Origin: Sphingomonas sp. SUN019
GTDB lineage: Bacteria > Pseudomonadota > Alphaproteobacteria > Sphingomonadales > Sphingomonadaceae
Direction of reading: 5' to 3'
Assembly: GCF_024758705.1 (NCBI RefSeq)
Contig: NZ_CP096971.1
Span: 806,001 to 870,000 of the forward strand
Length of the DNA: 64,000 nt
The first letter of the stretch is position 1, and every line of letters begins with the position of its first letter. The notes under the pieces were generated by a model. It was given only the letters and a program-made list of their open reading frames with translations. It was not told where the DNA came from and ran no database searches. A program made the position numbers and the translations under genes. Below are positions 13,955 to 46,808 of the stretch, in pieces.

Positions 13955-15631
13955 TCAGTCGCCGCGCCTCTTGAACTCGAGTTCGGGAAAGCCTCCATCG
14001 GCCGACTTGTCCAGCGTATCATAGTAAAGGCCCGCACCGCCGAAATAGATCAGCACCCGCGCCGGCTTGTCCTCGCGATTGGCGCCCATCATCCATGAAT
14101 TCACCTTGTCGCCCTGCGCCATCAGCGTTTGCCCGTGGATGTCGGCGGTCTGCGCGGACCACGCCTGCTCGGCTTCGCGCCGCGGTTCGAACACGTCGAA
14201 GCCTTCACGCTCCATCTTGTCGATACAGCGCGTGATCCAGATAACGTTCTGCTCGATCGAGGTTGGCAGGTTGGCGAATGGCGCCTGCGGACCCGTGATC
14301 ACGAACATGTTGGGGAAATCCGACACGCAGACCCCCATGATGCTTTCCGACTGCGCCCGCCATTTTTCCTGCAACGTCTGGCCACTACTGCCTCGGATCG
14401 GAAACGCCTCCAGCGCGCCAGTATAGGCCTTGAAGCCGGTCGCCAGGACGATAATGTCGAAGTCGTAGTCGCCCTTCGTGGTGCGCACGCCGGTCTCGAT
14501 GATTTCGACCAGCGGTTCGGCGTTCTTTATGTCCACCAGTTGAACGTTGTCCCGGTTGAACGCTTCAAGATAGCCGTGGTCGAGCGGCGGGCGTTTGGCG
14601 AAGAGCGGATAATCGTCGAATGACGGCGTCAGCTTTTCCGCCAGGACCGGATCCTTCACCCGCTCCCTCATCTTCGCGCCTATGAAGTCGGCGGCCATCC
14701 GGTTGGCCTCCGGACTGCTCAGCAGATCGTCGAACGTTTCGAATACCCAGCGGAAGCTTCCGGTCCACTTCTCCTCGAATATCCGTTGCCGTTCCTCCGC
14801 GGGCGTGTCGACGGCGTTGCGGCCGACCGGGCTGTCGAACGCCATGCCGAACACATGCTTGCGGCATTTGGCGACGATATCGTCGTAATTCTGCTTGATG
14901 CTCCGGTCCCACTCCGGCGTCATGTCCTGCTGCATCGCAGGCAGCACGTAGTTCGGCGTGCGCTGAAAAACCGTCACGCTCGCCGCGGTTTCGGCGACCA
15001 CCGGCAACATCTGCACGGTCGTCGCTCCCGCGCCGATGATGCCGACGCGCTTGCCCGCATAGTCCAGATGCTGCTGCGGCCAGCGCGAGGAATGGAACAG
15101 CGGCCCCTTGAAATCCTTCATGCCGTTGATCTTCGGGATCACCGGTTCGGAAATCATGCCCATCCCGCTGATAAAATACTTGCAGGTGAAGGATTCGCCG
15201 CCCGCAGTGTCGACCTGCCAACAGGCTCGATCGGCAAGATACCGCGCCTCGACGATTTCGGTGTTCAGCTGAATGTTCGGCCACATGTCGCACCGGTCGG
15301 CAATGAAGCGGAGATAATTCTGTGTTTCCTCCCGGCCCGGATACCGCTTGGTCCATTTCCATTCCTGCAACAGCTCCTTGGAAAAGGTCAGGCAGTAATA
15401 ATAACTTTCGCTGTCGGTCGCCGCGCCGGGATAGCGGTTCCACGCCCAGGTGCCGCCGACGTCCGACGCGCGATCGAACACGCGGACCGACAGGCCCAGC
15501 GTGCCGAGATGATGGAGCACAGCGAGTCCGGCAAACCCAGCGCCGATGCAAATGGCGTCGAAATCCACGCCATCTGTCTTGGGCTTCCGGCCCTGCGCGG
15601 CTTCATCGGTACGGATGACGGTAGTGCTCAT
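13955..15631 (-). CDS. Baeyer-Villiger / flavin-containing monooxygenase
   Basis: 558 aa, FAD- and NADPH-dependent, inserting oxygen next to a ketone carbonyl to give an ester or lactone. The first Rossmann motif GAGFAG is at residues 30-35 and the second, GIIGAGA, near 197-203. The Baeyer-Villiger fingerprint FxGxxxHxxxW is exact at F174-W184 (FKGPLFHSSRW). GTWAWNRYPGAATD is typical of cyclohexanone- and phenylacetone-type enzymes. AGGAG lies eight bases before the ATG. It is the last gene of the seven-gene minus-strand operon starting at 21073. The downstream partner would be the alpha/beta hydrolase at 16816, acting as a lactone or ester hydrolase. The substrate is unknown. Confidence 0.88.
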   Translation of the reverse strand: MSTTVIRTDEAAQGRKPKTDGVDFDAICIGAGFAGLAVLHHLGTLGLSVRVFDRASDVGGTWAWNRYPGAATDSESYYYCLTFSKELLQEWKWTKRYPGREETQNYLRFIADRCDMWPNIQLNTEIVEARYLADRACWQVDTAGGESFTCKYFISGMGMISEPVIPKINGMKDFKGPLFHSSRWPQQHLDYAGKRVGIIGAGATTVQMLPVVAETAASVTVFQRTPNYVLPAMQQDMTPEWDRSIKQNYDDIVAKCRKHVFGMAFDSPVGRNAVDTPAEERQRIFEEKWTGSFRWVFETFDDLLSSPEANRMAADFIGAKMRERVKDPVLAEKLTPSFDDYPLFAKRPPLDHGYLEAFNRDNVQLVDIKNAEPLVEIIETGVRTTKGDYDFDIIVLATGFKAYTGALEAFPIRGSSGQTLQEKWRAQSESIMGVCVSDFPNMFVITGPQAPFANLPTSIEQNVIWITRCIDKMEREGFDVFEPRREAEQAWSAQTADIHGQTLMAQGDKVNSWMMGANREDKPARVLIYFGGAGLYYDTLDKSADGGFPELEFKRRGD

Positions 15632-15687
15632 CTGGTTTCTCCTGGCGCAGGCGATTTCGGTCGGACGATTGGGTGCGGGTCGAACCC

Positions 15688-16791
15688 TCAGTAAAGAATG
15701 TCTTTGGTTTCCAGGGCGTAGGGCTTCAGGTCGGTCAGATCATGGGCCAGCACCTTTCGCAGCCACTCCGGATCGCTCAGCAACGCGCGGCCGACCGCCA
15801 CGAGATCGAAATCGCCGCGTTCGAACCGGCGGCGCAGGTCGTCGAGTTTCTCGACCTCCGGTTGCGAAGTGCCTTCGACAAAATCCGCCATCAGATCGCG
15901 CGACAGTCCGATCGACCCGACCGTGATGGTCGGGCAGCCCGTGACCGCCTTCACCCACCCTGCAAGGTTCAGGTCGCTCCCCTCAAACGTGGGTTCCCAG
16001 AAACGGCGTTCGGAGGCGTGAAATATGTCCACACCCGCATCGACCAGCGGCGTCAGCCACTGCTCCATTTCCGCCGTGTCGCGGGCCAAGCGCGCGTCGT
16101 AATCGTACACCTTCCACTGCGAGACGCGGAAGATGATCGCGAGGTCGGGCCCCACGGCTTCGCGGATCGCGGCGACGGTTTCGGCGGCAAAGCTTGCCCG
16201 CGCTCCGATATCCGATCCGCCATAGCCATCTGTTCGCTTGTTAGTGACGTCCCAGAAGAATTGGTCGAACAGATACCCATGCGCACCGTGAAGCTCGATG
16301 GCGTCGCAACCCATCCTGACGGCATCCCGCGCGGCGCGCGCAAAGGATGCGATGACGTCGGCGATGTCCTCCTCTGTCATCGGCCGTCCGCCGGGCATGT
16401 CGAGCCCTACCAAGCCGGAAGGGCTGACCAACTGATCATGCGGGGAGTCGGGGAAGTTGAAATCGGTGCAGCCGCCGACGTGCCAGAGCTGCGGGATGAA
16501 CGCGCCGCCGCTCGCGTGAACGCCGTCGACAACGTGCTGCCATCCCTGAAGCGGGCGCTCGCCGTGGAAATGCGGGACCGCGTCGGCGGCGACCGCGCCG
16601 GGCACGTCCACCGCGACGCCTTCGGTGATGACCCCCGCGACACCGCCGTCGATGCGGCGGCGATAGTAATCCGCGATCTCTCGCCCTGGCGTACCCCCCG
16701 GCGCGAAATAGCGCGACATCGGCGCCATCACGAAACGGTTGGCCAGCTTCAGCGACTTGTACGCGAAAGGAACCATCAGCGAATCAAGCAT
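15688..16791 (-). CDS. NADH:flavin oxidoreductase, old yellow enzyme family
   Basis: 367 aa FMN enzyme with a TIM barrel. VMAPMSRYFAPGGTPGREIADYY is the family's N-terminal FMN and substrate region. ELHGAHGYLFDQFFWDVTNKRTDGYGG carries the conserved HGAHGYL and N.RTD.YGG signatures. The C-terminal VGSIGLS...LVAVGRALLSDPEW binds the FMN phosphate. The length and absence of an Fe-S Cys cluster match single-domain ene-reductases rather than 2,4-dienoyl-CoA reductase. It probably reduces the C=C bond of an enone before Baeyer-Villiger oxidation by the downstream gene, which is inference. It sits 24 bases behind the hydrolase gene. Confidence 0.88.
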   Translation of the reverse strand: MLDSLMVPFAYKSLKLANRFVMAPMSRYFAPGGTPGREIADYYRRRIDGGVAGVITEGVAVDVPGAVAADAVPHFHGERPLQGWQHVVDGVHASGGAFIPQLWHVGGCTDFNFPDSPHDQLVSPSGLVGLDMPGGRPMTEEDIADVIASFARAARDAVRMGCDAIELHGAHGYLFDQFFWDVTNKRTDGYGGSDIGARASFAAETVAAIREAVGPDLAIIFRVSQWKVYDYDARLARDTAEMEQWLTPLVDAGVDIFHASERRFWEPTFEGSDLNLAGWVKAVTGCPTITVGSIGLSRDLMADFVEGTSQPEVEKLDDLRRRFERGDFDLVAVGRALLSDPEWLRKVLAHDLTDLKPYALETKDILY

Positions 16792-16815
16792 GGAAGTGCC
16801 TTTTCAGGATAGCGA

Positions 16816-17622
16816 TCATCGCAGGTCCGCCAGAAAGCCGATCAGCGTGTCGTGATAGGCGTCGGGATCCTCGACGAACGGCGCGTGGCCGCTGCCCTCG
16901 AAGGTGACCAGGCGGCCGTGCCGCGCAATTTCCGCCGCCTGCATCCCGATCTCCGGCGGCACGATCGCGTCCGCGCTCCCGACGAGCGAAAGTACAGGTA
17001 CGTCGAGCCGCGCGAGCACCGCACGCTGGTCGAGATCGGCGAGATCCACGATCGACCGGCCGACGCCGGGGCCGCTGTCCATGAACATGGCCCACATCCA
17101 GTCGATGACGGGCTGCCCTACGGGCTTCGCACAAACAGCTTGCGCGATCCCCATGAAGAACCCGGCACGATCCGCCGCCATCGCCTGCGGCGTGCCGCGA
17201 ACCGCCTCCGCCGTGCCGCCATACGGAAAATCGCTCGCCTGCGTGTAACGTGGCGTAGCGCCGCAGGTGAGCACCAGCCCGGCAAGACGGTCACCGAGCC
17301 GATCGGCCGCCGCTACTGCAACCGCACCGCCGAGCGACCAGCCGTTCAGCACCACCCCATCAAGCCCGAGTTGCTCTACGACCGCGACGACGTCGCCCGC
17401 CAGCGCGTCGATCGACGTATCGGCGAAATCATGGTCCGATCGCCCGCAGCCACGGTGGTCGATCGCGACCACCGCGTGCCCCGCGGCGCGCAGGCGATCG
17501 ATCGTCCCCGCCCAGGCGCGTGACGACATCGCCCAGCCGTGGATGAGGACGACCGGGCGTCCCGGCCCGGCATGGTGCTGATAATAGACCTGTCGGCCGT
17601 CTTCGGCATCGATAAAGGCCAT
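16816..17622 (-). CDS. Alpha/beta-hydrolase (probable lactone or ester hydrolase)
   Basis: 268 aa, cytoplasmic. The oxyanion motif LIHGWAMSSRAW is near residue 27. The nucleophile elbow GWSLGGAV (Ser near residue 95) and the C-terminal GSGHAPFVEDPD with the catalytic His are all present, and DAIVPPE supplies the acid region. AGGAGAG precedes the ATG. Because it is co-transcribed with a Baeyer-Villiger monooxygenase, hydrolysis of the lactone or ester product is the natural role. Haloperoxidase-type and C-C hydrolase-type members share these motifs, so the reaction is not proven. Confidence 0.82.
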   Translation of the reverse strand: MAFIDAEDGRQVYYQHHAGPGRPVVLIHGWAMSSRAWAGTIDRLRAAGHAVVAIDHRGCGRSDHDFADTSIDALAGDVVAVVEQLGLDGVVLNGWSLGGAVAVAAADRLGDRLAGLVLTCGATPRYTQASDFPYGGTAEAVRGTPQAMAADRAGFFMGIAQAVCAKPVGQPVIDWMWAMFMDSGPGVGRSIVDLADLDQRAVLARLDVPVLSLVGSADAIVPPEIGMQAAEIARHGRLVTFEGSGHAPFVEDPDAYHDTLIGFLADLR

Positions 17623-17662
17623 GCGTCTCTCCTGCGGGCTTCGTGCTCGGTCGCGCGTCTGT

Positions 17663-18124
17663 TCAGGCGGGCGCCGACAGCGTGATGCCGACCAGCGGGC
17701 TGAAATGATGCATCTTCACGTGGCGGCGCGCGATCTTCCACACGCCGCCGCGGCGCTCGAAATCGTCGGTGTAGGTCGCCGCCACGGTCTGCGCCTGCCC
17801 GTCCGCCGTCGTGCCGATACAATCGACGTCGCTGACCCCGCTCGCCTGGTCGGCCCCGTCGAACGTGACGCGCAGGTTGGTGTTATAGTGGGTCGACTGT
17901 TTCCATGCCGGCCACAGGATGTCGTGGACGGCGCGCGTGATGCCCTCATGCCCGTCGAAGTTGCCGAACGGTGGACCAACCTCCCATACGGCATCTTCCC
18001 ACCAGATGCCGATGAAGCGCTCCCAATCCCTTTTGTCGAAGCCCAGGCAGTAATCGGACGTCAAATCCAGGATCGCGAAGCGGCTTTCCAGCTGATCGAT
18101 CCGGGCGAGCAAAGCGTCGGTCAC
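17663..18124 (-). CDS. SnoaL/NTF2-like protein
   Basis: 153 aa with a cone-shaped alpha+beta fold pattern: helical start (LLARIDQLESRFAILDLTSDYCLGFDKRDWERFIGIWWEDAVWEV), then strands ending VWKIARRHVKMHHFSPL. The D..RDWE.F...W..DA.W pattern is common to SnoaL_4-type isomerases, dehydratases and hydroxylating partners in ring-degradation clusters. The GTG start overlaps the acyl-CoA dehydrogenase stop by four bases (GTGA), so translation is probably coupled. It could be an isomerase or dehydratase for the enzyme pair around it; no catalytic residues can be named with certainty. Confidence 0.75.
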   Translation of the reverse strand: MTDALLARIDQLESRFAILDLTSDYCLGFDKRDWERFIGIWWEDAVWEVGPPFGNFDGHEGITRAVHDILWPAWKQSTHYNTNLRVTFDGADQASGVSDVDCIGTTADGQAQTVAATYTDDFERRGGVWKIARRHVKMHHFSPLVGITLSAPA

Positions 18125-19428
18125 GCGGCAACCTCCTTTTCAAGAAACGCGGCGAATTTGCGCTCGGCGGCGGCGCGGGTGTCGGGCACGAAATAGGTCG
18201 GGAAAACGCCGGGCGAGGGCTGCACGTCACGCAGCACGTCGCGCGCGACCGAGACCTTGTGCACCTCGGTCGGGCCATCGACGATGCCCATTTCGGGGAC
18301 GTACTGCCACATGTCCATCAGCGGCGTTTCATTCGACATGCCGAGCGATCCGTGCAGATGCAGCGCGCGATAGACGACGTCCTTCAGCACGCCGGGCATC
18401 GCCGCCTTGATCGCCGAAATCTCGCGCCGGACGGGCCGGGTATAGGCCTTGTCGCGGTCCAGCAGCCATGCCGCGTACAGCACGTGCAGGCGGAACTGCA
18501 GGATCTGCGTATAGCTGTCGGCGATCTTTTCCTGCACCATCTGCTTGTCGGCCAGCCGCTCGCCTTTCGTAATGCGGGAGACGACACGCTCCTTCATCAT
18601 GTCCATCGCCTTGTTCAGCATGCCGACGGTGCGCATCGCGTGATGGATGCGCCCGCCGCCGAGCCGCGACTGCGCCACCTTGAACCCCGCCCCGACCGGA
18701 CCAAGGTTGCTGTCCGCCGGAACGCGGCAATCGGTGAACCGGATATAGCCTTGGACGCCCGATCCCAATTCGTCCTTCGGGCCGACGGCGGTGTTGCGGA
18801 CGATGTGCATGCCCGGCGTCCCAGCGGGCACGATGATCATCGTCGACCCTTCGTGCACCGGCACGTCGGGGTCGGTGATGGCCATGACGATCAGGAATTC
18901 GGCGACGCAGGCGTGGCTGGCGAACCATTTCTCGCCGTCGACCACCCATTCGTCCCCGTCCAGCCGGGCGACGCAGGTGAACTCGCCGGGATCGGCACCC
19001 GCCTGCGGCTCGGTCATCGAATAGCAGGACACGATGTCTCCATCGAGCAACGGCTGCAGATACCGCGCCTTCTGCGTATCGCTGCCAAAGCGGGCGAGGA
19101 TTTCGGCATTTCCTGTATCGGGCGCCTGCGTGCCGAAGACGGTGGGGGCGAAACGGCTGCGGCCGAGAATCTCGTTCATCAGCCCGAGCTTCAACTGGCC
19201 AAAGCCATTCCCGCCCAGTTCCGGTCCCAGGTGACAGGCCCATAGCCCGCGTTCCTTCACGATTCGCTGCAACGGCTTCATGATCGCGCGCGCGGGCGAT
19301 TTCGGATCGAACGGTGCGGCGGGCGCGCGGAACACCAGGTCGAGCGGCTCCACCTCCTCGCGGACGAACGTGCCCATCCAGTCCAGCTGTTCCTGAAAGT
19401 CGGGGTCGGTCGAAAAATCCCACGCCAT
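18121..19428 (-). CDS. Acyl-CoA dehydrogenase, ACAD10/11-LvaC-like subgroup
   Basis: 435 aa flavoprotein. SMTEPQAG (about 137-144) and GEKWFAS bind FAD and substrate, and DGPTEVH near the C-terminus is the family end motif. Several stretches match, from memory, the dehydrogenase domain of human ACAD11: FAPTVFGTQAPDTGN (93-107) and GRIHHAMRTVG (259-269). That subgroup acts with an APH-type kinase to remove a hydroxyl from 4-hydroxyacyl-CoA through a phosphorylated intermediate, as LvaA and LvaC do in levulinate breakdown. A kinase of the right family is encoded at 24285-25304. GGAGA precedes the ATG at 19428, which is preferred over longer in-frame starts. Confidence 0.88.
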   Translation of the reverse strand: MAWDFSTDPDFQEQLDWMGTFVREEVEPLDLVFRAPAAPFDPKSPARAIMKPLQRIVKERGLWACHLGPELGGNGFGQLKLGLMNEILGRSRFAPTVFGTQAPDTGNAEILARFGSDTQKARYLQPLLDGDIVSCYSMTEPQAGADPGEFTCVARLDGDEWVVDGEKWFASHACVAEFLIVMAITDPDVPVHEGSTMIIVPAGTPGMHIVRNTAVGPKDELGSGVQGYIRFTDCRVPADSNLGPVGAGFKVAQSRLGGGRIHHAMRTVGMLNKAMDMMKERVVSRITKGERLADKQMVQEKIADSYTQILQFRLHVLYAAWLLDRDKAYTRPVRREISAIKAAMPGVLKDVVYRALHLHGSLGMSNETPLMDMWQYVPEMGIVDGPTEVHKVSVARDVLRDVQPSPGVFPTYFVPDTRAAAERKFAAFLEKEVAA

Positions 19429-19468
19429 CTTGGTCTCCGGCCGCACCCGCGGCCTCAGGTGAAAAGGA

Positions 19469-20221
19469 TCAGTGCCCCGCGTACCAGCCGCCATCGATCC
19501 ACAGTTCGGCCCCGGTGATGTAACGCGCCTCGTCCGAAGCGAGGAACAGCGAGCCGTACGCGATGTCCATCGGATCGCCGACGTCGCCCATCGGGATCGA
19601 CGCCTTGATCGCGGCATCTTGCTCTGGCGTGATGTCGCCGAGGATCGGGGTCTTGATCTGGCCGGGAAAGATCGTGTTCACGCGGATGCCCGCCCGCGCA
19701 AATTCCAGCGCCGCGCCCTTGCCCATCACCCGCACCGCCGCCTTGGACGCGTGATAGCTGATCGCATCGGGGCTGCCGATCAGGCCGTACAGCGACGATA
19801 TGTTGACGATCGCGCCATTTCCCGACGCCAGCAACGCTTCCGCCGCCGCCTTCATGCCGAGAAAAGGCCCGGTCTGGTTGACCGCGATCATCTTCGCCCA
19901 GCCCGCTTCGCTTTCGCTGCGGACACCGCCGGGATGGAAAATGCCCGCATTGTTGACCAACGTCGTCAGGCTGCCGAAGGCTGCGATCGTCGCGTCGACC
20001 GCCGCGGTCCAGCTGTCGAGGCTGGTGACGTCCAGGCGGATGAACGCCGCCTCACCCCCCGCGTCACGGATTTGCGTTACGATTTCGGCGCCGAGCGATT
20101 CCTGCAGATCGCCGATCATCACCTTGGCACCCTCGCGCGCGAACAGCACCGCCTGCGCCGCGCCGAGACCGCTGGCGCCCCCGGAAATCAGCGCCACCTT
20201 GCCGGCCATCCGATCCGCCAT
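19469..20221 (-). CDS. Short-chain dehydrogenase/reductase
   Basis: 250 aa classical SDR. The cofactor motif SGGASGLG (TGxxxGxG type, Thr replaced by Ser), NNAG, the catalytic Ser in VNISSLYG and YHASK (YxxxK) are present. C-terminal ITGAELWIDGGWYAG closes the fold. The Asp after the second strand (MIGDL) favours NAD over NADP. The ATG at 20221 is eight bases after GGGAGAGA; a GTG two codons upstream is too close. It likely oxidises an alcohol to a ketone in the same pathway as the monooxygenase downstream. An 84-base gap to the previous gene carries the second copy of an operator-like motif. Confidence 0.88.
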   Translation of the reverse strand: MADRMAGKVALISGGASGLGAAQAVLFAREGAKVMIGDLQESLGAEIVTQIRDAGGEAAFIRLDVTSLDSWTAAVDATIAAFGSLTTLVNNAGIFHPGGVRSESEAGWAKMIAVNQTGPFLGMKAAAEALLASGNGAIVNISSLYGLIGSPDAISYHASKAAVRVMGKGAALEFARAGIRVNTIFPGQIKTPILGDITPEQDAAIKASIPMGDVGDPMDIAYGSLFLASDEARYITGAELWIDGGWYAGH

Positions 20222-20278
20222 CGTCACTCTCTCCCACGGCGCAGCTTTTCCAACCGGCTCGTATTAACGACTAACTCA

Positions 20279-20297
20279 CTTACTAGATCATAACAAG
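20279..20297. promoter_or_regulatory. Putative TetR operator, copy 2
   Basis: CTTACTAGATCATAACAAG, an imperfect 19-base inverted repeat (CTT..T...A..AAG), lies in the gap between two SDR genes of the minus-strand operon. It closely resembles the motif at 21129-21147, and flanking bases are also shared (CAC before, A..AT after). The site probably marks a second, internal promoter. Confidence 0.45.
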
Positions 20298-20305
20298 TAA
20301 CATAA

Positions 20306-21073
20306 TCAGGTCGGCCCGCCAGAACGCACGTGCCAGCCATTGTCGACCTGCAATTCGATGCCGGTGATGAAGCGCGATTCGGCGCTGGCGAGGAACAGCA
20401 CCGCCTGCGCGATGTCCTCCGCCGCGCCGATCGCGCCCTGCGGCAAGGCACCCGCCGCGACCGGCCGTTCCTCGCCCGGCCGGCCCTCGGCCAGCGCCAT
20501 CATCGGTGTCTCGATCGCACCGGGGTGGATGGTGTTGCAGCGGATGCCGGAGCCGGTTTCCTGGCAGTGCATCGCGATCGACCGGCTCATCGCCTCCACC
20601 GCGCCTTTGGCGGCGGTATAGGCGAAGAAGATCGGGAAACCGACCTTCGTCACGATCGACGCCATGTTGATAATCGATCCGCCACCGGCGCGACGCATCG
20701 CCGGGATGGCGTGCTTGCAGCCGAGGAATACGCCCTCCGCCATCACCGCGTTCATGCGACGGAAATCGTCGAGACCGGCGTCCTCGACCGTGGCGAACGA
20801 CACCACGCCTGCATTGTTGATGAGGATATCGAGCCGGCCGAAGCGCGCCTCTACATCGGCGATCAGGTCGATCCAGCCCTGTTCGTCGGTCACGTCCTGC
20901 GTCACGAAGTGCGCGTTGGGGCCGGCGCGATCGACCGTAACGCGGCCGCCGTCCGTGTCGATGTCGGTGGCGATGACCGTGGCGCCTTCGGCTGCCAGCA
21001 GGATCGTGTCGGCCCGGCCGATGCCCGATCCGGCCCCGGTCACGATCGCGACCATACCCTCGACCCGCCCCAT
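20306..21073 (-). CDS. Short-chain dehydrogenase/reductase, first gene of the operon
   Basis: 255 aa classical SDR. TGAGSGIG binds the cofactor, ATDID after the second strand suits NAD, NNAG follows, and the catalytic triad is Ser in INMASIV and YTAAK (YxxxK). The end ITGIELQVDNGWHVRSG is normal. The ATG at 21073 follows GGGAGAG and matches the usual N-terminus MGRVEGMVAIVTG; upstream in-frame codons are rejected. It heads the catabolic operon running down to 13955 and is divergent from the TBDR at 21273. It shares SDR class but not close identity with the neighbour at 19469, so the two probably act on different intermediates. Confidence 0.88.
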   Translation of the reverse strand: MGRVEGMVAIVTGAGSGIGRADTILLAAEGATVIATDIDTDGGRVTVDRAGPNAHFVTQDVTDEQGWIDLIADVEARFGRLDILINNAGVVSFATVEDAGLDDFRRMNAVMAEGVFLGCKHAIPAMRRAGGGSIINMASIVTKVGFPIFFAYTAAKGAVEAMSRSIAMHCQETGSGIRCNTIHPGAIETPMMALAEGRPGEERPVAAGALPQGAIGAAEDIAQAVLFLASAESRFITGIELQVDNGWHVRSGGPT

Positions 21074-21128
21074 TCCGCTCTCCCAACGCCGTTGATCCGG
21101 GCTGACGTTTCGCGGTCTGTAAAACACA

Positions 21129-21147
21129 CTTGCTAGACGTCAACAAG
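21129..21147. promoter_or_regulatory. Putative TetR operator, copy 1 (divergent promoter)
   Basis: CTTGCTAGACGTCAACAAG is an imperfect 19-base inverted repeat (CTTG.T...A.CAAG) in the 199-base region between the divergent SDR and TBDR genes. Copy 2 lies at 20279-20297. The size and symmetry fit TetR-family sites, and a TetR gene closes the plus-strand operon at 27674. Confidence 0.5.
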
Positions 21148-21272
21148 CATTATATCACCATCCGTACCGGAGAACCGGCGGATATGGTGCTGGGCACGGG
21201 CGTCGCACGAACGACTCTCGGCCCCCTCGCAAGCACCGGTCCGTCGACACGGCGTCAAGGAGGGGAAAACCA

Positions 21273-23555
21273 ATGTTCCGACGTCACACCTGTCTTTTCC
21301 GAACCGCCCTGAATGGTTCGGCCGCATTGGCCGCACTGACCGCGGCGCCCGCGTTCGCGCAGGAGGCGCCCGGCACTACCGCCGCCGCCGGATCGGCATC
21401 CGAGCAGACCGCCGGGCCGCCCACGACCGCCGGCGGGCTGGAGGATATCATCGTCACCGCGCGCAAGCGGGTCGAAAACCTGCAGGATGTCTCCACTTCG
21501 GTCAGCGCGCTGTCGGCGAATGAGCTGTCGCAACGGTTCGATTCCGACGTGCGCGATTTCGCCAATGCCGCGCCCAACGTGCTGATCGACGACACGCAAC
21601 AGGGACCGGGCGGCGTCGCCTCCGCCGCCATCCGCGGCATCGGCGTGGCCGACGTGGAAAAGGCGATCGACCCGACCGTCGGCATCGTGCTGGACGACAT
21701 CTATTTCGGCACCAGTTCGGGCGGCCTGATCAAGGCGATCGACATCGACCGGGTCGAGGTGCTGCGCGGGCCGCAGGGGACGCTGTTCGGACGCAACGCG
21801 ATCGCTGGCGTCATCAACCTCACGCGGTCCCGCCCGACGCAGGAACTGACCGGAAAAGTCCGCGCGACCTATGCCAATTACGATTCGCTCGATCTGGAAG
21901 GGGTCGTCAGCTTCGGCCTGACCGACTGGGCGGCGGTAAAGTTCTCGGGCGCGCGCAAGAAGACCGACGGCTATATCTACAACACGCTGCAGAACCAGGA
22001 CGGGCAGCGGTCGGACTTCACCGCGCTCGGCGTGCAATTGCTGCTGACACCGACGCCGGGGCTTGAGCTATCGTTCAGCTTTGACGACCAGAATACCGAT
22101 CAGGATCCGCCGCAGCTTTCCAACGTATCGGGGCCGACCTCGCTGCTCGGCGCGCCGCCGATCGCGCGGTCCAACCTGTTCTGCGCGGTGCTGAACCAGT
22201 GTTCGCCCGCATTCGGCGTGCCGCAGCAGGGCGATCGCTATCAATCGATCAGCAACGGGCCGCTGAACAAGAACGCGTTCTTCGACACCAACCTGTTCAT
22301 CGCGAAGGTCAAATATGACCTGACCGCCGATCTGGAACTTCAATATATCTACGGCCGGTACGAAACCGACGAGGCGATCACGCAGGATTTCGACGCGACG
22401 CCGCTGACCCTGTTCCACACCGACCGGCCGGCGCGCTATCATCAGGACACGCACGAACTGCGCCTGACGAAAGGCGGCGGCGGTCCGCTCAGCTTCGTGG
22501 CGGGTCTATACTATTGGGACTCGGCGTACCGGATCGATCTGGTCAGCTATATCGGCTTCGTCGTGCCCGATACCGTGCTGGCGCTGCCGCAGACCGTGCG
22601 TCAGACGAACAAATCCTACGCCGGTTTCTTCGACGTGGATTACCGTTTCACTGACTGGTTCAAGCTGACCCTCGGGGGCCGCTATACCAAGGACAAGAAA
22701 ACCCAGGGCGTGCGCGATCTGGGGTTCGATTTCTACGACGATCCGGTGAAGGACAGCTGGAAGAAATTCACGCCGAAGGTTGCGCTGAGCTTCGAGCCGA
22801 CCGACGATGTGCTGGCCTATGGCCTGTGGTCGCGCGGGTATCGCACCGGCGGTTTCACCGGACGCCCGGCGACCGAGAACGCCGCCCGCACGCCGTACCA
22901 GCCCGAAACGGTCGACAATTACGAGATCGGCGTGAAGGCCGAACTGCTCGACCGCCGCCTGCGCGTGAACGGCGCGATCTTCAAACTGGATTACAAGGAC
23001 AAGCAGGAGGAATTCAGCGTGCCCGCCCCGGTCGGCACCGGGCAGGAAACGCGCATCCTGAACGCCGCCACCGCGACCGTGAAGGGCGTCGAACTGGACG
23101 TCACCGCATTGCTGTTCGACGGGTTCACGCTGAACGGCAACGTCGGTTACCTCGATGCCAAGTACAAGAATTTCGTCGCCGACGTGGACAGCGACGGCAT
23201 CGTTACCGACAACAGCGGCCTGAAATTCCGCCGCGCGCCGAAATGGAACTGGACGCTCAGCGCCAATTACGAGCGGGAGATCGGCCCCGGCACCGCATAT
23301 CTGCAGGGGACATGGCATTATCTCGGCGCGCACGAGATGACGTTCCTGAACAATCCGGCGCTGCGAAATCCCGGTCAGGATCTGGTCGACGCCTCGATCA
23401 GCTACAAGGTCGGAAAGACCATGCTTTCCGGCTTCGTGCGCAATCTGTTGAAGGAGGATGGCTGGTCGATCGGTTTCGACGTGCAGGGCTTGTGGAGCTA
23501 TGCGGCGCCGCGCACGCCGCGGACCTACGGCATCGCGCTGACGCAAACTTTCTGA
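21273..23555 (+). CDS. TonB-dependent receptor (compact type)
   Basis: 760 aa outer-membrane receptor. The signal peptide ends PAFAQ, and the TonB box/plug start is LEDIIVTARKRVENLQDVSTSVSAL. The plug carries IRGIG, VEVLRGPQGTLFGRNAIAGVIN (the classic plug motif) and the barrel ends ALTQTF. This short class resembles receptors in sphingomonad catabolic clusters for aromatic, terpenoid or sterol-like compounds more than the 1,000-residue sugar receptors elsewhere in the window. AAGGAGGGG precedes the ATG. An SDR gene follows one base after the stop, so uptake and metabolism are co-transcribed. Confidence 0.92.
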   Translation: MFRRHTCLFRTALNGSAALAALTAAPAFAQEAPGTTAAAGSASEQTAGPPTTAGGLEDIIVTARKRVENLQDVSTSVSALSANELSQRFDSDVRDFANAAPNVLIDDTQQGPGGVASAAIRGIGVADVEKAIDPTVGIVLDDIYFGTSSGGLIKAIDIDRVEVLRGPQGTLFGRNAIAGVINLTRSRPTQELTGKVRATYANYDSLDLEGVVSFGLTDWAAVKFSGARKKTDGYIYNTLQNQDGQRSDFTALGVQLLLTPTPGLELSFSFDDQNTDQDPPQLSNVSGPTSLLGAPPIARSNLFCAVLNQCSPAFGVPQQGDRYQSISNGPLNKNAFFDTNLFIAKVKYDLTADLELQYIYGRYETDEAITQDFDATPLTLFHTDRPARYHQDTHELRLTKGGGGPLSFVAGLYYWDSAYRIDLVSYIGFVVPDTVLALPQTVRQTNKSYAGFFDVDYRFTDWFKLTLGGRYTKDKKTQGVRDLGFDFYDDPVKDSWKKFTPKVALSFEPTDDVLAYGLWSRGYRTGGFTGRPATENAARTPYQPETVDNYEIGVKAELLDRRLRVNGAIFKLDYKDKQEEFSVPAPVGTGQETRILNAATATVKGVELDVTALLFDGFTLNGNVGYLDAKYKNFVADVDSDGIVTDNSGLKFRRAPKWNWTLSANYEREIGPGTAYLQGTWHYLGAHEMTFLNNPALRNPGQDLVDASISYKVGKTMLSGFVRNLLKEDGWSIGFDVQGLWSYAAPRTPRTYGIALTQTF

Positions 23556-23556
23556 C

Positions 23557-24297
23557 ATGGAGCCCGACGCGACAGGCGCTCCGCCGCCGCGGCGCTGGAT
23601 CGTCACGGGTGCCTCGCGTGGTCTGGGACTCGCCATCGCGCACGGGGCGGCGGCGCGGGGCGACCGCGTCGCGCTGCTCGCACGTGGCGAGGGTGTCGAG
23701 GCGGTCGCCCGGACGGTCGGCGGCGAGGCGATCGGCCTGCGCGCCGACGTGTCGGATGTCGCGTCGGTCCGGGCGGCCGTCGACACGGTGGCGGCGCGGT
23801 GGGGCGGCGTGGACATTCTGGTCAACAACGCCGGGCTACATCGCGGCGACCTGATCGACAGGATCAGCGTCGGTGACTGGGACGACGTGCTCGCCACCAA
23901 TCTGTCGGGGCCGTTCCATGCCGTCCGGGCGGTATTGCCGCACATGCCGGCCGGCGGTTCGATCGTAAACGTCGGCGCGGTCGTAGGTTTTCGCGGGTTC
24001 GTCGGCGACAGCGCCTATGGATCATCGAAGGCGGGGCTCGCAGGCCTTACGCAGGTGCTGGCGGTGGAACTCGCGCGGCGCGGCATCCGGGTCAATCTGG
24101 TGCTGCCTGGGTTCGTCTCGACCGAAATGACCGCCGGGATATCCGAGCGTGCCCGTGCGCGCGTCGTGGCGCGAATACCGCTGAAGCGGGAAGGCACGCC
24201 GGAGGAACTGGCGGAGGTCGTCTATTGGGTCGCCGGATCGCCCTATATGACCGGGTCGGTGGTCGCCACTGACGGCGGGTTGATGTGCGCGCTGTAG
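23557..24297 (+). CDS. Short-chain dehydrogenase/reductase
   Basis: 246 aa classical SDR. TGASRGLG binds cofactor, and the basic residue after the second strand (LLARGE) suggests NADP. NNAG, VNVGAVVGF with a Gly in place of the usual catalytic Ser position, and YGSSK (YxxxK) follow. The end is GSVVATDGGLMC. The substitution at the Ser position is worth noting: the strand reads NVGAVVG where NISS is usual. It is similar in style to FabG-type ketoreductases. It sits one base after the TBDR and overlaps the kinase gene by 13 bases. Confidence 0.85.
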   Translation: MEPDATGAPPPRRWIVTGASRGLGLAIAHGAAARGDRVALLARGEGVEAVARTVGGEAIGLRADVSDVASVRAAVDTVAARWGGVDILVNNAGLHRGDLIDRISVGDWDDVLATNLSGPFHAVRAVLPHMPAGGSIVNVGAVVGFRGFVGDSAYGSSKAGLAGLTQVLAVELARRGIRVNLVLPGFVSTEMTAGISERARARVVARIPLKREGTPEELAEVVYWVAGSPYMTGSVVATDGGLMCAL

Positions 24298-25304
24298 CGC
24301 CGGACGAAGCCGACCGCTTCGCGCGCTGGATGGCGCGAGAGGCCGGTATTTCGGACGCGCGGATGGGGCGGTTGCTGGCGGGCGGCAATGCCAACGTGAC
24401 GCGTCTGATCGAGAGCGCGGACGGAGCGATGGTCCTGCGCCACGCCCCGCAGCAGGCGGTGTCGGCAAAGGCTGGAGCGGGGATCGCGCGCGAGTACCGG
24501 CTGCTCGCCGCGATCGGCGACGTGGCGCCCGTGCCGCGAGCGATCGCCTGGTGCGACGACCCGGCGGTGATCGGCGTACCGTTTGCGGTGTCCGCGTTCG
24601 TGGAGGGGGTGGCGCTGACCGACACGCTGCCCGCGGCCTATCCGGCGTCGGCGGATGCGGTCGATACGATCGGCCGGGAACTGGTGGACGGAATCGCGCA
24701 GGTTCATACGATCGACTGGCAGACACGCCTTCCCGCCGGTTGCGGGCGTCCGGACGATTTCCTGACGCGGCAGATTCACCGCTGGAACGATCTGCGAGCG
24801 GAGGTCTCGGTCCGCGAGCTGCCGATGCTGGACATGATCGCGCGCTGGCTGCTCGCCACGCTCCCGACGGACGGCGCGTCGCGGATTGTCCACTGCGACT
24901 ATCATCTCGACAATTGCCTGTTCGATCCGGCCAGGCCGGTGCTGCGGTCGATCATCGATTGGGAAATGGCGACGATCGGCGATCCGATGGTCGATCTCGG
25001 CCTGTTGCTCATGTTTTGGCGGCGGGAAGATATGGCGTCGCTGGGCTTCCACTTCGTCCAGCGAATTTCCAACCGTCGCGACGTGGTCGATCCGCGCGTG
25101 CTCGCGGACCGCTGGTCGGACCGCACCGGCCTGTCGTCGGAGCGCCTCGACTGGTATCGTGTCTTCGCCTTCTGGCGACTGGCGGCGATCGTGGAGGGCG
25201 CATTCGTGCTGTACCGGAAGGGCGCAGTCGACAGCGCCTATGCGCGCGGGCTCGAACGCGACGTGCCCGCCCTGCTCGCCGAAGCGGCGGCGCTGATCCG
25301 ATGA
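24285..25304 (+). CDS. APH-family phosphotransferase (LvaA / ACAD10-11 kinase type)
   Basis: 339 aa, GTG start inside the end of the SDR gene. The kinase catalytic motif IVHCDYHLDN (HxDxxxxN, about residues 201-210) and the metal-binding SIIDWEMATIGDPMVDL (about 222-238) are intact. GNANVTRL and VLRHAP near the N-terminus are the nucleotide-loop and Lys/Arg region. The DYHLDNCLFD and DWEMATIGDP pattern is that of LvaA and of the kinase half of human ACAD10 and ACAD11, which phosphorylate hydroxyacyl-CoA rather than aminoglycosides. A matching acyl-CoA dehydrogenase is encoded in the divergent operon (18121-19428), and an acyl-CoA ligase overlaps by four bases downstream. Antibiotic resistance is therefore not the likely role. 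Confidence 0.82.
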   Translation: MRAVAPDEADRFARWMAREAGISDARMGRLLAGGNANVTRLIESADGAMVLRHAPQQAVSAKAGAGIAREYRLLAAIGDVAPVPRAIAWCDDPAVIGVPFAVSAFVEGVALTDTLPAAYPASADAVDTIGRELVDGIAQVHTIDWQTRLPAGCGRPDDFLTRQIHRWNDLRAEVSVRELPMLDMIARWLLATLPTDGASRIVHCDYHLDNCLFDPARPVLRSIIDWEMATIGDPMVDLGLLLMFWRREDMASLGFHFVQRISNRRDVVDPRVLADRWSDRTGLSSERLDWYRVFAFWRLAAIVEGAFVLYRKGAVDSAYARGLERDVPALLAEAAALIR

Positions 25305-26947
25305 CGAGCACCGAGATGCAGCCGACGATGATGGCCTTTCCGATGACGACGCAGATGATCCTGCGGCACGGCGCGCGTCTGCACGGCCGGGCCGAGATCG
25401 TGTCGTTCGACGGATCGGGGTTCAGCCGCGCATCCTATGCGGCGGTGGCCGATCGTGCCGCGCGGCTGGCGGCGGCGCTGGCCGCACTCGGCGTCCGCGC
25501 GAACGACCGGGTGGCGACGTATTGCTGGAATCACCAGCCGCATTTCGAAGCCTATTTGGCCGTGCCCGCGATGGGGGCCGTACTGCACACGTTGAACGTC
25601 CGGCTCTCCGCCGATCAGATCGGCTACATCGCGCGCCACGCCGAGGATCGCGTGCTGATCGCGGACGCCAGCCTGATCGGCCAGATTGCTCACATACTCG
25701 GTTCGATCCCGTCGCTGGAGGCCGTGATCCTGGTCGGCGAAATGGTCGACCTGCCCGACTTTGCGGGTCGCGTGATCTGTTACGACGCGCTGCTCGGCGA
25801 TCAGGCACCGCTCGTCGACTGGCCGGACATCCAAGAAAACAGCGCCGCGGTCGCGTGCTATACGTCAGGCACGACGGGCGACCCCAAGGGCGTCGTCTAC
25901 AGTCACCGGTCGATCTTCGCCCACAGTCTGGCGTCGATGGGCGTTGACACGTTCGCCATTTCTCAGTCGGACCGCATCCTGCTCCTGCCACCGATGTTTC
26001 ACGCCAACGCATGGGGCCTGCCCTTCAGCGGCTGGTTCGCGGGCAGCACGTTCATCCTTCCTGGACCGCACCTGCAGCCGGGCAAGGTGCGCCGCATGAT
26101 AAAAGCGGAACGGCCAACCTTCGTGTCGACCGTGCCGACCATCCTGAACGACCTGCTCCGCGAACACGCCACCGCACCGATCGGGATGGAGTGCTTTCGC
26201 GTTATCGTGTCAGGCGGTTCCGCCGTTTCGCCCGCGTTGATCGAGCGGGTTCGCGAGACGTGGAACATCCCGGTCGTGCAGGGCTGGGGCATGACGGAAA
26301 CGAGCCCGTTGTGCGTCCTGTCGCACCCCCCGCTCGGCACGCCGACCGAGCAGGAATTGGACTGGCGCGCGAAGAGCGGCCGCCCGGTGCCGGGCGTCGA
26401 AGTACGCATCGTCGACGATGACGGCGAACGATTGCCCGAGGACGGTTCGGCGGTCGGCGCGCTCGAACTGCGCGGCCCATGGATTGCGCGGGGATACCAT
26501 GCCCGCGAATCTGCTGACGTGCTTTCCCCCGACGGCTGGCTGCGCACTGGCGACGTCGGCACGATCGACCCGCTCGGCTATGTCCAGATCACTGACCGCG
26601 TGAAAGACATCATAAAATCGGGCGGCGAATGGGTATCCTCGGTCGATATCGAAAATCGCCTCGCCAGCCTTCCGGAGGTGGCCGAGGTCGCCGTCATCGC
26701 CGTGCCCGATCCACGGTGGGAGGAGCGTCCGCTCGCGCTGATCGTTGCAACCACGCCGGATAGCCTGCATCCCGCAGCGTTGCGCGGCCGGTTGATGACG
26801 ACCATGCCGAAGTTCTGCGTTCCGGAATATTGGGCCGAAGTGTCCAGCTTGCCGCGGACAAGCGTCGGAAAGATCGACAAACGCGCGCTCCGCGCCGCCG
26901 TCGCGGATGGCACAATCCGCTATGTGCGCGAGGAGGCAATTCTATAA
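25301..26947 (+). CDS. Acyl-CoA synthetase (AMP-forming)
   Basis: 548 aa adenylate-forming ligase. The P-loop YTSGTTGDPKGV, the adenine site GWGMTETSPL, GWLRTGDVG, the hinge IKSGGEWVSS and the C-terminal catalytic Lys in RTSVGKIDKRALR are all present. It would activate a free acid (for example the hydroxy acid from lactone hydrolysis) to its CoA thioester. The ATG at 25301 overlaps the kinase stop by four bases. An open frame continues far upstream but runs over the kinase in another frame. The nearest families are medium- to long-chain fatty-acid and LvaE-type ligases. Confidence 0.9.
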   Translation: MTSTEMQPTMMAFPMTTQMILRHGARLHGRAEIVSFDGSGFSRASYAAVADRAARLAAALAALGVRANDRVATYCWNHQPHFEAYLAVPAMGAVLHTLNVRLSADQIGYIARHAEDRVLIADASLIGQIAHILGSIPSLEAVILVGEMVDLPDFAGRVICYDALLGDQAPLVDWPDIQENSAAVACYTSGTTGDPKGVVYSHRSIFAHSLASMGVDTFAISQSDRILLLPPMFHANAWGLPFSGWFAGSTFILPGPHLQPGKVRRMIKAERPTFVSTVPTILNDLLREHATAPIGMECFRVIVSGGSAVSPALIERVRETWNIPVVQGWGMTETSPLCVLSHPPLGTPTEQELDWRAKSGRPVPGVEVRIVDDDGERLPEDGSAVGALELRGPWIARGYHARESADVLSPDGWLRTGDVGTIDPLGYVQITDRVKDIIKSGGEWVSSVDIENRLASLPEVAEVAVIAVPDPRWEERPLALIVATTPDSLHPAALRGRLMTTMPKFCVPEYWAEVSSLPRTSVGKIDKRALRAAVADGTIRYVREEAIL

Positions 26948-26993
26948 CGACGCGGGCTTCAACCGCGTTCACAACGGGAACCTACGCCGCACG

Positions 26994-27674
26994 ATGACCA
27001 AGCCAGACAAGCCTGCCCGGATGACCCAAGCGGAACGGACCGCGATATCCGATGCGCGAATGTACGAGGCGGCCGTCGCGCTGATCTTCGAATCGGGCAC
27101 CCACAACACGACGTTGAAGGATATCGGAGAGCGCGCGGGCTACAGTCGCGGGCTTGCGAGCAACCGGTTCGGATCGAAGGAAGCGCTGTTCGGCAATTTG
27201 GTCACCAATTTCAACAAGACCTGGGTCGAAGAACTCGGCCGGTTCGTCGGCGACCGGACCGGCCTGCCGGCCTATCTCGCCGCGCTTGATGCGGTCGAAG
27301 ATTTCCTGTTGACCCAATCGGTCGTCATGAAGGCGATGTACATATTGTGGTACGAAACGATCAGCAGCCACAACGATCTGCGCGTCCGTCTTGCCGAACA
27401 TCACGCCGCCTACCGCCGCGACGCCGAACGCTGGCTACGCGAGGGGATCAAGGACGGCGTGGTCCGCCCCGACGTCGATCCGGCGCTGACCGCGATCCAG
27501 TTCTGCTCGTTCATCTTCGGCACCATTTATCAATGGCTGGTCGATCCGGTGGCGGTGGATATTCCCGGCAGCTTCCGCCTCTACCGGCAAACCTCGCTCG
27601 AAACGCTGGCCGTGCAGCATCGATCGGGCGGGCGGGCCAAATCGTCGGCCGCTCTGCTGCAAGCAAACAAATAA
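26994..27674 (+). CDS. TetR-family transcriptional regulator
   Basis: 226 aa. The N-terminal HTH region TLKDIGERAGYSRGLASNRFGSKEALF (about 40-66) is typical, with Arg-Ala-Ser-Asn in the recognition helix where YYHF often occurs. The C-terminal ligand domain is helical (FLLTQSVVMKAMYILWYETI). The ATG at 26994 is preferred; earlier in-frame codons lie inside the ligase gene, and an ATG at 27021 is possible. It is the last gene of the plus-strand catabolic operon and the obvious candidate for the two 19-base inverted repeats at 20279 and 21129. The effector is probably a pathway acid or its CoA ester, which is inference. Confidence 0.88.
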   Translation: MTKPDKPARMTQAERTAISDARMYEAAVALIFESGTHNTTLKDIGERAGYSRGLASNRFGSKEALFGNLVTNFNKTWVEELGRFVGDRTGLPAYLAALDAVEDFLLTQSVVMKAMYILWYETISSHNDLRVRLAEHHAAYRRDAERWLREGIKDGVVRPDVDPALTAIQFCSFIFGTIYQWLVDPVAVDIPGSFRLYRQTSLETLAVQHRSGGRAKSSAALLQANK

Positions 27675-28087
27675 CCGCCACCGCGGCTCCCGCGGGGTCG
27701 CGTTCCGCTTTCAGGTCGCTCGCGCCGCAGCAGGTTTGCGCCAGACGAGCACGCCCTAGATCTTCGCGCTCACAACGAGCGCGGGAGCGACAGGATGAAG
27801 GCGCGAACGACGAATTATATCTTGCGAGCGCAGGTACCGGTGCGTCTTCGGCTCATCCGTCACCGATATTGGCGGTGCTGGGCAGGCCCGAGCCGCAGAG
27901 AAAATCCGCCGCAGATGGATTCTTACCAAAAAATTAGCGCGATCGCGGCAGTCCGCGACGCGACTGCGCGGCCCCCCAGACAATGTCGCGCCATAATGGA
28001 GAACTGTTTTCCTGACCCCGCCCCGCGCGCCGTCCCCTCTGGACGCGCGGGCGTCCCTGGTTCCAGAAGGCGCGGCAGGAGGATGCG
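27675..28087. other. Intergenic region before the first halogenase-like gene
   Basis: 413 bases without a credible gene. A short CCGCGG-CTC-CCGCGG stem follows the TetR stop (27681-27695), and a 7-bp stem CGCGCTC/GAGCGCG lies at 27765-27783. Neither is followed by a T-run. A strong ribosome site, GGAGG, lies just before 28088. No LacI-type palindrome was found here. Confidence 0.6.
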
Positions 28088-29614: not shown

Positions 29615-29780
29615 ACGTGGATCATGACGCGTTTCCGGTCGACTGTGGCCTGGCAGCAACATTTCGTCGTGAAACGTCGCCAGCGCGCCGCAGTCATCAT
29701 CGAATCAGTTGACCGATCTGGCCGATCCGGTCTTTGAACGACGCCTCGCATACGTATGCCAATAAATGCTTGATCGGCAG

Positions 29781-29794
29781 TGTAACCGGTTACA
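29781..29794. promoter_or_regulatory. LacI-family operator (perfect palindrome)
   Basis: TGTAACCGGTTACA is a perfect 14-base palindrome with a central CG, as in LacI-family sites, and lies 19 bases before the start of the TBDR gene at 29814. Binding there would block transcription or translation initiation of the receptor. A LacI-family gene lies at 35398-36450. Confidence 0.7.
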
Positions 29795-29813
29795 GCGAAT
29801 GGAGGGGATGAAG

Positions 29814-32816: not shown

Positions 32817-32828
32817 CGTTACCCATGT

Positions 32829-32859
32829 GGGGCCGCCGTCATGCGGCCCCGCTTTCTTT
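32829..32859 (+). terminator. Rho-independent-type terminator behind the TonB receptor
   Basis: Stem GGGGCCGC / GCGGCCCC (8 bp, all GC) with a CGTCAT loop is followed by GCTTTCTTT. It starts 12 bases after the TBDR stop. The DUF6445-like gene begins only 17 bases later, so it probably acts as a partial terminator that sets the ratio of receptor to downstream enzymes. Confidence 0.75.
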
Positions 32860-32876
32860 GTGGAGACCGCCCACCG

Positions 32877-35372: not shown

Positions 35373-35397
35373 CAGGGTCGTTCCGCGCGTCGCACGA

Positions 35398-36450: not shown

Positions 36451-36458
36451 CGCTCGGT

Positions 36459-41257: not shown

Positions 41258-41287
41258 GCTCCTGTTCTGCCGCCCGCCGCCATGAAA

Positions 41288-41312
41288 GGCCACCCTCCGC
41301 CGGAGCGTGGCC
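41288..41312 (-). terminator. Intercistronic hairpin between TonB receptor and halogenase operon
   Basis: GGCCAC and GTGGCC arms (6 bp), one C-C mismatch, then CTCC/GGAG with a three-base loop; on the minus strand TTTC follows. It begins eight bases past the receptor stop. With the hairpin at 32829, it is the second case of a strong stem placed directly behind a TBDR and before accessory genes. Confidence 0.55.
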
Positions 41313-41320
41313 CGCCAGCG

Positions 41321-44359: not shown

Positions 44360-44406
44360 GATAACCCCTCCCATACACCATCGGCGCAGTATGCCCGCGC
44401 CCTCAT

Positions 44407-44420
44407 TGAGAACGTTCACT
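44407..44420. promoter_or_regulatory. LacI-type operator, receptor side
   Basis: TGAGAACGTTCACT contains the perfect 8-base palindrome GAACGTTC at 44410-44417 and lies 48 bases before the TBDR start at 44359. A second copy with the same core lies 66 bases away at 44476-44483; flanks ATTGA and ATTGT are also shared. Confidence 0.55.
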
Positions 44421-44470
44421 TCCGTCAAACCACGTCGATTGTCAAGTAGCCGACGCCGCCCACCTCACAT

Positions 44471-44486: not shown

Positions 44487-44553
44487 GAATATGCTCCTCC
44501 TTGCGTGGGCCGCGCACTGCGCAACGTTACAGCGGCAAACGAAGGGGTTGAGG

Positions 44554-46800: not shown

Positions 46801-46808
46801 ATTTGCCG

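Follow-up and report, generated by a model that had tools for sequence, protein, structure and literature searches.

The gene cluster described here lies within a 64,000-nucleotide stretch of DNA from Sphingomonas sp. SUN019 (contig NZ_CP096971.1 of assembly GCF_024758705.1, positions 806,001 to 870,000), which is referred to below as the window. Two divergent sets of genes at this locus combine a Baeyer-Villiger monooxygenase (BVMO) with an APH-type kinase and an acyl-CoA dehydrogenase related to the enzymes that remove hydroxyl groups from hydroxyacyl-CoA. The minus strand carries, in order, SDR2, SDR1 (two short-chain dehydrogenases/reductases, SDRs), the acyl-CoA dehydrogenase, a SnoaL protein, a hydrolase, an old yellow enzyme (OYE) and the BVMO, and the plus strand carries a TonB receptor, SDR3, the kinase, an acyl-CoA ligase and a TetR regulator. 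Pfam and NCBIfam searches of the open reading frames in the window were used to assign gene families, and they bore out the families and coordinates given in a preliminary description of this DNA. The locus is probably a catabolic regulon under TetR control that serves the breakdown of a cyclic, perhaps methyl-branched, terpenoid-type alcohol or ketone. Its features are as follows.

13955..15631, minus strand: type I Baeyer-Villiger monooxygenase, CHMO-like (fingerprint and PDB match)
15688..16791, minus strand: old-yellow-enzyme-family reductase (PF00724; PDB top match 8e5h, 146 bits)
16816..17622, minus strand: alpha/beta hydrolase, probable lactonase (PF00561)
17663..18124, minus strand: LinA-family SnoaL_4 protein, probable dehydratase (PF13577; LinA 5kvb, 136 bits)
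18121..19428, minus strand: acyl-CoA dehydrogenase of an ACAD11-sister subfamily, probable phosphoacyl-CoA eliminase (kept residues and tree)
19469..20221, minus strand: SDR1, conserved dehydrogenase (Pfam; 73-75% in the three first relatives)
20278..20298, no strand: operator palindrome upstream of SDR1, ACTTACTAGATCATAACAAGT
20306..21073, minus strand: SDR2 (Pfam)
21128..21148, no strand: operator palindrome in the divergent SDR2/TonB-receptor promoter, ACTTGCTAGACGTCAACAAGC
21273..23555, plus strand: TonB-dependent receptor (PF00593, PF07715)
23557..24297, plus strand: SDR3, 3' end overlapping the kinase start (Pfam; 64-70% in the three first relatives)
24285..25304, plus strand: APH-type kinase, probable hydroxyacyl-CoA kinase (PF01636; kept residues)
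25301..26947, plus strand: acyl-CoA ligase, ATGA overlap with the kinase (NCBIfam alone: NF004837, 585.7 bits against a cut-off of 476)
26907..27674, plus strand: TetR-family regulator, start perhaps at 26994 (PF00440)

The reading frames of SDR3 and the kinase, of the kinase and the ligase, and of the dehydrogenase and the SnoaL protein overlap, which is consistent with co-translation. The start of the TetR gene is uncertain, and the in-frame ATG at 26994 seems the better choice because a start at 26907 overlaps the ligase and 26994 lies closer to the starts in relatives. When the first three relatives were compared, none showed a separate match to SDR2. The hydrolase has 5h3h as its top PDB match (130 bits), followed by arylesterases at 113 bits, and carries a serine within the motif GWSLG.

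Conservation of the gene set was examined with a dehydrogenase scan using one genome per species, which yielded 531 related stretches; the 80 best loci were taken forward. With two more added and five duplicate copies set aside, 82 loci were compared with the window proteins by tblastn and scored at identity thresholds chosen after the matches had been viewed. A close group of 31 loci has dehydrogenases at least 78% identical to that of the window, and a distant group of 51 loci has dehydrogenases at 65-72%. Loci with at least 8 kb before and at least 4 kb after the dehydrogenase (16 close and 36 distant) were regarded as well flanked. SDR3, the kinase, the ligase, TetR, the hydrolase and the SnoaL protein are each present in 16/16 well-flanked close loci, and the recurrence of these six core genes alongside the dehydrogenase puts this gene set far above chance. 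The TonB receptor (15/16), SDR1 (14/16) and a CoA-transferase III (11/16) are nearly as regular or somewhat less so. Among the well-flanked distant loci, which come from a group of Halieaceae, other Gammaproteobacteria and a few Delta/Myxococcota records, SDR3 is found in 33, the hydrolase in 34, the kinase and TetR in 30 each, the ligase in 28, the TonB receptor in 17 and the OYE in none. The module recurs in other Sphingomonadales and in Gammaproteobacteria, many of them Halieaceae. Within the window's own family, the close dehydrogenase group occurs in 8 of 397 genomes, the source genome included, and a close BVMO in 4 of 397, and the ten other genomes of the same genus gave no dehydrogenase match at a cut-off of 1e-100. 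This patchy spread is consistent with horizontal transfer.

The BVMO carries exactly one match to the fingerprint FxGxxxHxxxW(P/D), FKGPLFHSSRWP at residue 174, just as the preliminary description had noted. Its top PDB match is the Thermocrispum CHMO 5m0z (474 bits), and its orthologues in relatives are 68-82% identical. Of the 16 well-flanked close loci, 12 have this BVMO and the other 4 have a luciferase-like protein, here called LLMa; similarly, 15 have the OYE and the remaining one has a second luciferase-like protein, LLMg. Across all 82 loci, BVMO was scored in 39, LLMa in 6, both in none and neither in 37, and the corresponding counts for OYE and LLMg are 23, 36, 0 and 23, where the loci with neither include cut contigs and genes located elsewhere. 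The same exclusion is seen in the 8 family genomes with a close dehydrogenase, of which 4 have a close BVMO and the other 4 (G035, G088, G118 and G201) have LLMa at the locus. In one Deltaproteobacteria record (L114), LLMa follows the dehydrogenase in the usual place of the BVMO. When 14 genomes were searched, a close BVMO (68-82%) was found in 12, and the other two (L062 and L114) are carriers of LLMa, which was scored at loci rather than genome-wide. The fold of bacterial luciferases is also that of type II BVMOs. PDB and NCBIfam matches place LLMa in the bacterial luciferase family, so it could catalyze the same ketone-to-lactone step. BVMO and LLMa, like OYE and LLMg, are probably enzymes swapped at one step each.

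Further evidence that these genes act together comes from a palindrome spotted by eye at 20278 and 21128. Its core, CTTRYT-N7-ARYAAG, occurs twice in the 3.8-Mb genome, both times at this locus, and the reversed pattern has 4 matches per strand. The 80 related loci hold 85 exact core sites, distributed over 66 of the loci, compared with 0-3 sites in five mononucleotide shuffles and none for the backward pattern. Most sites lie in the gap between the TonB receptor and SDR1 in sphingomonads and in the gap between SDR3 and the dehydrogenase in gammas, with looser matches between TetR and the CoA-transferase. In 8 of the 12 genomes with a BVMO, that gene lies outside the fetched dehydrogenase locus, and the 250 bp upstream of it contain an exact site in 5 cases, a site with one mismatch in 2 and no site in 1. 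Because the operator precedes the unlinked BVMO in 7/8 genomes, the BVMO and the kinase/dehydrogenase pair look like parts of one regulon, a connection for which the shared operator is better evidence than adjacency would be. TetR itself is predicted to bind the operator. One locus (L091) has five exact sites in 21 kb, including sites upstream of a CoA-transferase III gene and of an SDR/SnoaL set, which are likely further members of the regulon. Gene content, its conservation, the shared operator, the mutually exclusive alternatives and the kept catalytic residues described below are direct observations.

The dehydrogenase and kinase had been proposed to form a module of the ACAD10/11-LvaA type. 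The dehydrogenase does contain the stretches QAPDTGN and GRIHHAMRTVG on which that proposal drew, and its best PDB matches are 4hr3 (239.6 bits) and ACAD11 (222 bits), with the next enzyme at only 143 bits. It also keeps the equivalents of R626, R631, H634, R637 and D753, the last located through a D-to-N change in chain 8v3v and aligned with the catalytic aspartate of the window protein. Modeling and mutation have tied these residues to phosphate binding, acyl orientation and catalysis (PMC12440821; this and the other PMC sources are cited from excerpts). The phosphate-binding residues R626, H634 and R637 are kept in all 15 module dehydrogenases placed in a tree, a selection from the 82 loci that includes the window, and, as a set, in 2 of the genome's 8 paralogues (those near 473 kb and near 1718 kb) but not in the other 6. 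In the 30-row tree, these 15 proteins and five relatives at 55-60% form one clade (support 100/100) with a stem branch of 1.08. This clade is sister to, and the window protein does not fall inside, a group made up of ACAD11, 4hr3 and the paralogue near 473 kb (joint group 94/89). Residues and tree together reject an ordinary fatty-acid enzyme, and the placement of the dehydrogenase away from such enzymes agrees with what the preliminary description had expected.

Even so, this genome has a closer counterpart of ACAD11 elsewhere. Identity to mouse ACAD11 is 37% for the window dehydrogenase and 56% for the paralogue near 473 kb; the paralogue near 1718 kb likewise has the full set of dehydrogenase residues, and its place in the tree is outside both groups. 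Published identities between LvaC and ACAD11 or ACAD10 are 56-62% (PMC11342911), and since the paralogue near 473 kb falls within this range, it is the likelier LvaC-type enzyme by sequence. It is part of a second kinase and dehydrogenase pair at G000:C1:471054-474356 (also L004, L013 and L054), whose dehydrogenase has all signature residues, and this pair is the likelier LvaC/LvaA-type pair of the genome.

The kinase shows a similar pattern. Its PDB matches are 9o56 (152 bits), 3dxp (130 bits) and ACAD11 (97 bits), and named drug-resistance enzymes reach no more than 21.7 bits, so that a drug-resistance APH can be rejected; the tree likewise places it apart from drug-type APH enzymes, as anticipated. 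The window kinase has equivalents of D220, N225, R86 and R176, and of the 14 module kinases chosen from the 82 loci, 13 keep all four; the exception is L121, which has lysine for R176. The 14 module kinases form one clade in a 24-row tree (100/99). Among five APH paralogues from the same genome included in the tree, R86 and R176 are absent in three and present in two; the paralogues near 471 and 1119 kb keep the kinase residues. Compared with ACAD11, the dehydrogenase and kinase are best described as sister subfamilies of its two halves rather than as ACAD11/LvaC orthologues. The proposed pairing of a BVMO route with this type of module is real and conserved, but its assignment to the ACAD10/11-LvaA type must be loosened to that extent. 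Other kinases were encountered in passing. In Allopontixanthobacter sediminis, a second APH kinase (L050:763-1785) adjoins the OYE gene and groups with ACAD11, 3dxp and a paralogue from the window's genome. At G000:C1:3263955-3270452 (L055 and L059), a DUF6285 gene is flanked on one side by a dehydrogenase and on the other by an APH kinase without counterparts of R86 and R176, and two CoA-transferase III matches are found nearby. The DUF6285 gene (3267646-3267900) is the sole match to that family in the genome, far from the window.

The SnoaL protein had been given no role in the preliminary description, which identified its family correctly; it can now be placed in the LinA family. LinA proteins are its best PDB matches (136, 132 and 126 bits, followed by 33.5 bits for the next), with 40.5% identity over 148 residues. 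The catalytic dyad of LinA, D25 and H73 (PMC3507683), is kept in the window protein and in 50/50 other module SnoaL rows, one of which (L091) is only distantly similar. R129 is present in 49/50 of these rows, with a gap in L063, and K20 of chain 3a76 is replaced by tyrosine in the window and in 49/50 rows. Position 20 is not fixed in LinA either, because chain 5kvb, LinA by name, has glutamine there and leucine at 129. Among 120 SnoaL homologues listed, 13 are named gamma-hexachlorocyclohexane dehydrochlorinase by their source. In a tree built without six of the rows, namely 3b8l, L091 and the second SnoaL copies of four loci, LinA joins the module proteins from their sphingomonad side (100/97) on a stem of 2.4. 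A smaller 21-row tree had suggested that LinA is nested within the sphingomonad dehydratases (82/90), a placement not retained, as the larger tree leaves nested and sister positions undecided (approximately unbiased test, p 0.147). A homologue search with LinA relied on shared exact words, could not bridge to the module, and returned 36 proteins, which include almost identical copies, numerous short partial matches and a single relative at 74%. That relative, the metagenomic protein P0124, has a C-terminal end that seems nearer to the module dehydratases. To our knowledge the source of LinA is obscure. A single origin has been proposed for each lin gene, with no source for linA named in the excerpt (PMC4478539). 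On a bolder view, a widespread and so far undescribed pathway would join Baeyer-Villiger cleavage to phosphorylation-elimination of the hydroxyl, and its LinA-like dehydratase would be the stock that gave rise to the lindane dehydrogenchloride-removing enzyme (dehydrochlorinase) LinA in sphingomonads, an idea that is possible but rather doubtful.

Several characterized systems resemble parts of this locus. The 4-hydroxyacyl-CoA pathway of mouse and human ACAD10/ACAD11 relies on the same dehydrogenase and kinase residues, unlike which the window has two separate genes, sequences in sister clades and a BVMO regulon as their setting. The lva operon of Pseudomonas putida (LvaA-E) likewise brings together a kinase, a dehydrogenase and an acyl-CoA ligase, and its LvaD is an SDR. 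The window adds a BVMO, an OYE, a hydrolase, a LinA-like protein, a TonB receptor and TetR, and differs in that no LvaB-like gene, which we take to be of the DUF6285 family, was seen in the window cluster. The roles of LvaA, LvaC and LvaE as kinase, dehydrogenase and acyl-CoA ligase, respectively, are documented (PMC12440821, PMC11342911). From its general description, the lower pathway for carveol/limonene or menthol in Rhodococcus has in common with the window an SDR, an enone reductase, a BVMO, a lactone hydrolase and a CoA step, to which the window adds the kinase/ACAD11-type dehydroxylation and the LinA-like dehydratase. The cyclohexanol/cyclohexanone pathway shares the BVMO and lactone hydrolase, but in the window the hydroxyl would apparently be eliminated rather than oxidized to a dicarboxylic acid; no aldehyde dehydrogenase family was found among the 12 genes by Pfam or NCBIfam, the rest of the genome not having been searched. 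The window counterpart of LinA itself, the gamma-hexachlorocyclohexane dehydrochlorinase, differs in having tyrosine in place of K20 of chain 3a76 and in belonging to a conserved catabolic regulon.

These likenesses suggest a route whose reactions, order and substrate are predicted from gene content. The TonB receptor would take up the substrate, an SDR would convert a ring alcohol to the ketone, the LinA-like dehydratase would remove a ring hydroxyl as water, and the OYE would reduce the resulting enone. The BVMO would then expand the ring to a lactone, hydrolysis would give a hydroxy acid, and the ligase would convert this to its CoA ester. The APH kinase would phosphorylate the 4-hydroxyl of a hydroxyacyl-CoA, and elimination of the phosphate by the ACAD11-sister dehydrogenase would leave an ordinary 2-enoyl-CoA. 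Starting from a ketone with a six-membered ring, the route would yield 6-hydroxyacyl-CoA, which, if formed, could be shortened by one round of beta-oxidation to 4-hydroxyacyl-CoA. In cells with ACAD10, 4-hydroxyhexanoate gives rise to the phospho-CoA product, whereas its 5- and 6-hydroxy isomers do not (PMC11342911). If the window kinase is as strict as ACAD10, then a seven-membered lactone would need that round before the kinase acts, a step missing from the reaction order first proposed. One relative (L051) has a thiolase gene next to its OYE, which would be consistent with such a round.

The CoA-transferase III gene sits beside the BVMO in 3/3 first relatives and is missing from the window cluster, for which reason "complete," the term originally applied to the regulon, was too strong. 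This protein family includes racemases, and its presence in relatives would be explained by a 2-methyl branch. That the substrate is a methyl-branched cyclic alcohol or ketone of the terpenoid type is a guess, as is geosmin as a specific candidate. Three geosmin-degrading Sphingopyxis strains exist (PMC10353388). Sphingopyxis soli, the closest type strain in a table excerpted from that paper, is not among the 80 related loci, although no search was aimed at it. Searches of openly licensed PMC papers turned up no description of the regulon, and BVMOs in marine gammas are mentioned only in general in the excerpt of PMC8371827.

A number of observations weigh against the route as drawn. Only 17/36 well-flanked distant loci have a BVMO in the fetched stretch, and the same number have the SnoaL protein. 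With no CoA-transferase in the window cluster, the nearest one in the genome is far off and 52% identical, and the relatives' protein matches only CoA-transferase-type NCBIfam models, far under their cut-offs. The swap between OYE and a luciferase-like protein is not accounted for by simple enone reduction, and the low identity of the dehydrogenase to ACAD11, together with its long stem branch, may indicate a different substrate. Plasmids of Rhodococcus, Massilia and Streptomyces (L165, L166 and L167; three records of 1722 with a match) carry a 59-62% identical dehydrogenase accompanied by a phosphotransferase and an SDR, and none of the neighboring genes is annotated as a BVMO, though on the Streptomyces plasmid an unnamed FAD-dependent oxidoreductase about as long as a BVMO lies nearby. 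For 4 of 5 same-family relatives at 55-60%, no kinase match was present in the fetched 19-20 kb. The plasmid trios and these family relatives suggest that the kinase/dehydrogenase pair is reusable but not fixed.

Some of these points could be accommodated if the pair acted on 4-hydroxyacyl-CoA made by an SDR from 4-ketoacyl-CoA, much as in levulinate use, with the BVMO, OYE and hydrolase forming a separate upstream branch for the same substrate. SDR3 directly precedes and overlaps the kinase, and the plasmid trios would fit as well. This arrangement is unlikely given that the operator recurs upstream of unlinked BVMO genes and that BVMO or LLMa is found in 16/16 well-flanked close loci, both of which argue against the BVMO being a dispensable side branch. 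A side pathway for steroids or bile acids, in which the SDRs would be hydroxysteroid dehydrogenases, the SnoaL protein a BaiE-type dehydratase and the OYE a BaiCD-type reductase, has some appeal because the bai operon likewise includes members of the SnoaL, OYE, ligase, SDR and CoA-transferase III families, and because one relative is Novosphingobium sp. Chol11, a name familiar from bile-salt work. The OYE does match the BaiCD model, yet far under the cut-off (122.5 versus 825 bits), and its top solved relatives are other OYE-family enzymes. Similarly, the SnoaL protein matches LinA, its 6 solved relatives include no bile-acid dehydratase, and no 9,10-seco gene is found among the 12 genes, making this pathway decidedly improbable. 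Still less probable is that the pair has only its fold in common with ACAD10/11 and acts on another hydroxylated CoA ester or in protective phosphorylation. The stem length of the dehydrogenase clade, the kinase being only a separate clade and the family relatives that lack a nearby kinase could all be read that way, but the three phosphate-binding positions, the catalytic aspartate and the CoA-contacting arginines R86 and R176 are all kept.

The genes that flank the regulon on both sides belong to unrelated families or have no Pfam match. The latter is true of two long minus-strand open frames (27923-29662 and 50515-51729). The region at 29766-48877 was considered as a second copy of the module and rejected, being an unrelated carbohydrate-type cluster with outer-membrane receptors, GH43, GH3, GH16, LacI, SapC, a cupin and two Trp_halogenase-family genes.

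If a regulon of Baeyer-Villiger cleavage and phosphorylation-elimination is indeed encoded here, the ACAD10/11-type reaction would gain a further bacterial setting besides levulinate, and a hydroxyl derived from a Baeyer-Villiger reaction could be removed without oxidation to a dicarboxylate. The LinA relatives would likewise acquire a natural catabolic context. For the marine Halieaceae and the sphingomonads that carry these genes, the regulon would offer a hint as to one of their carbon sources.

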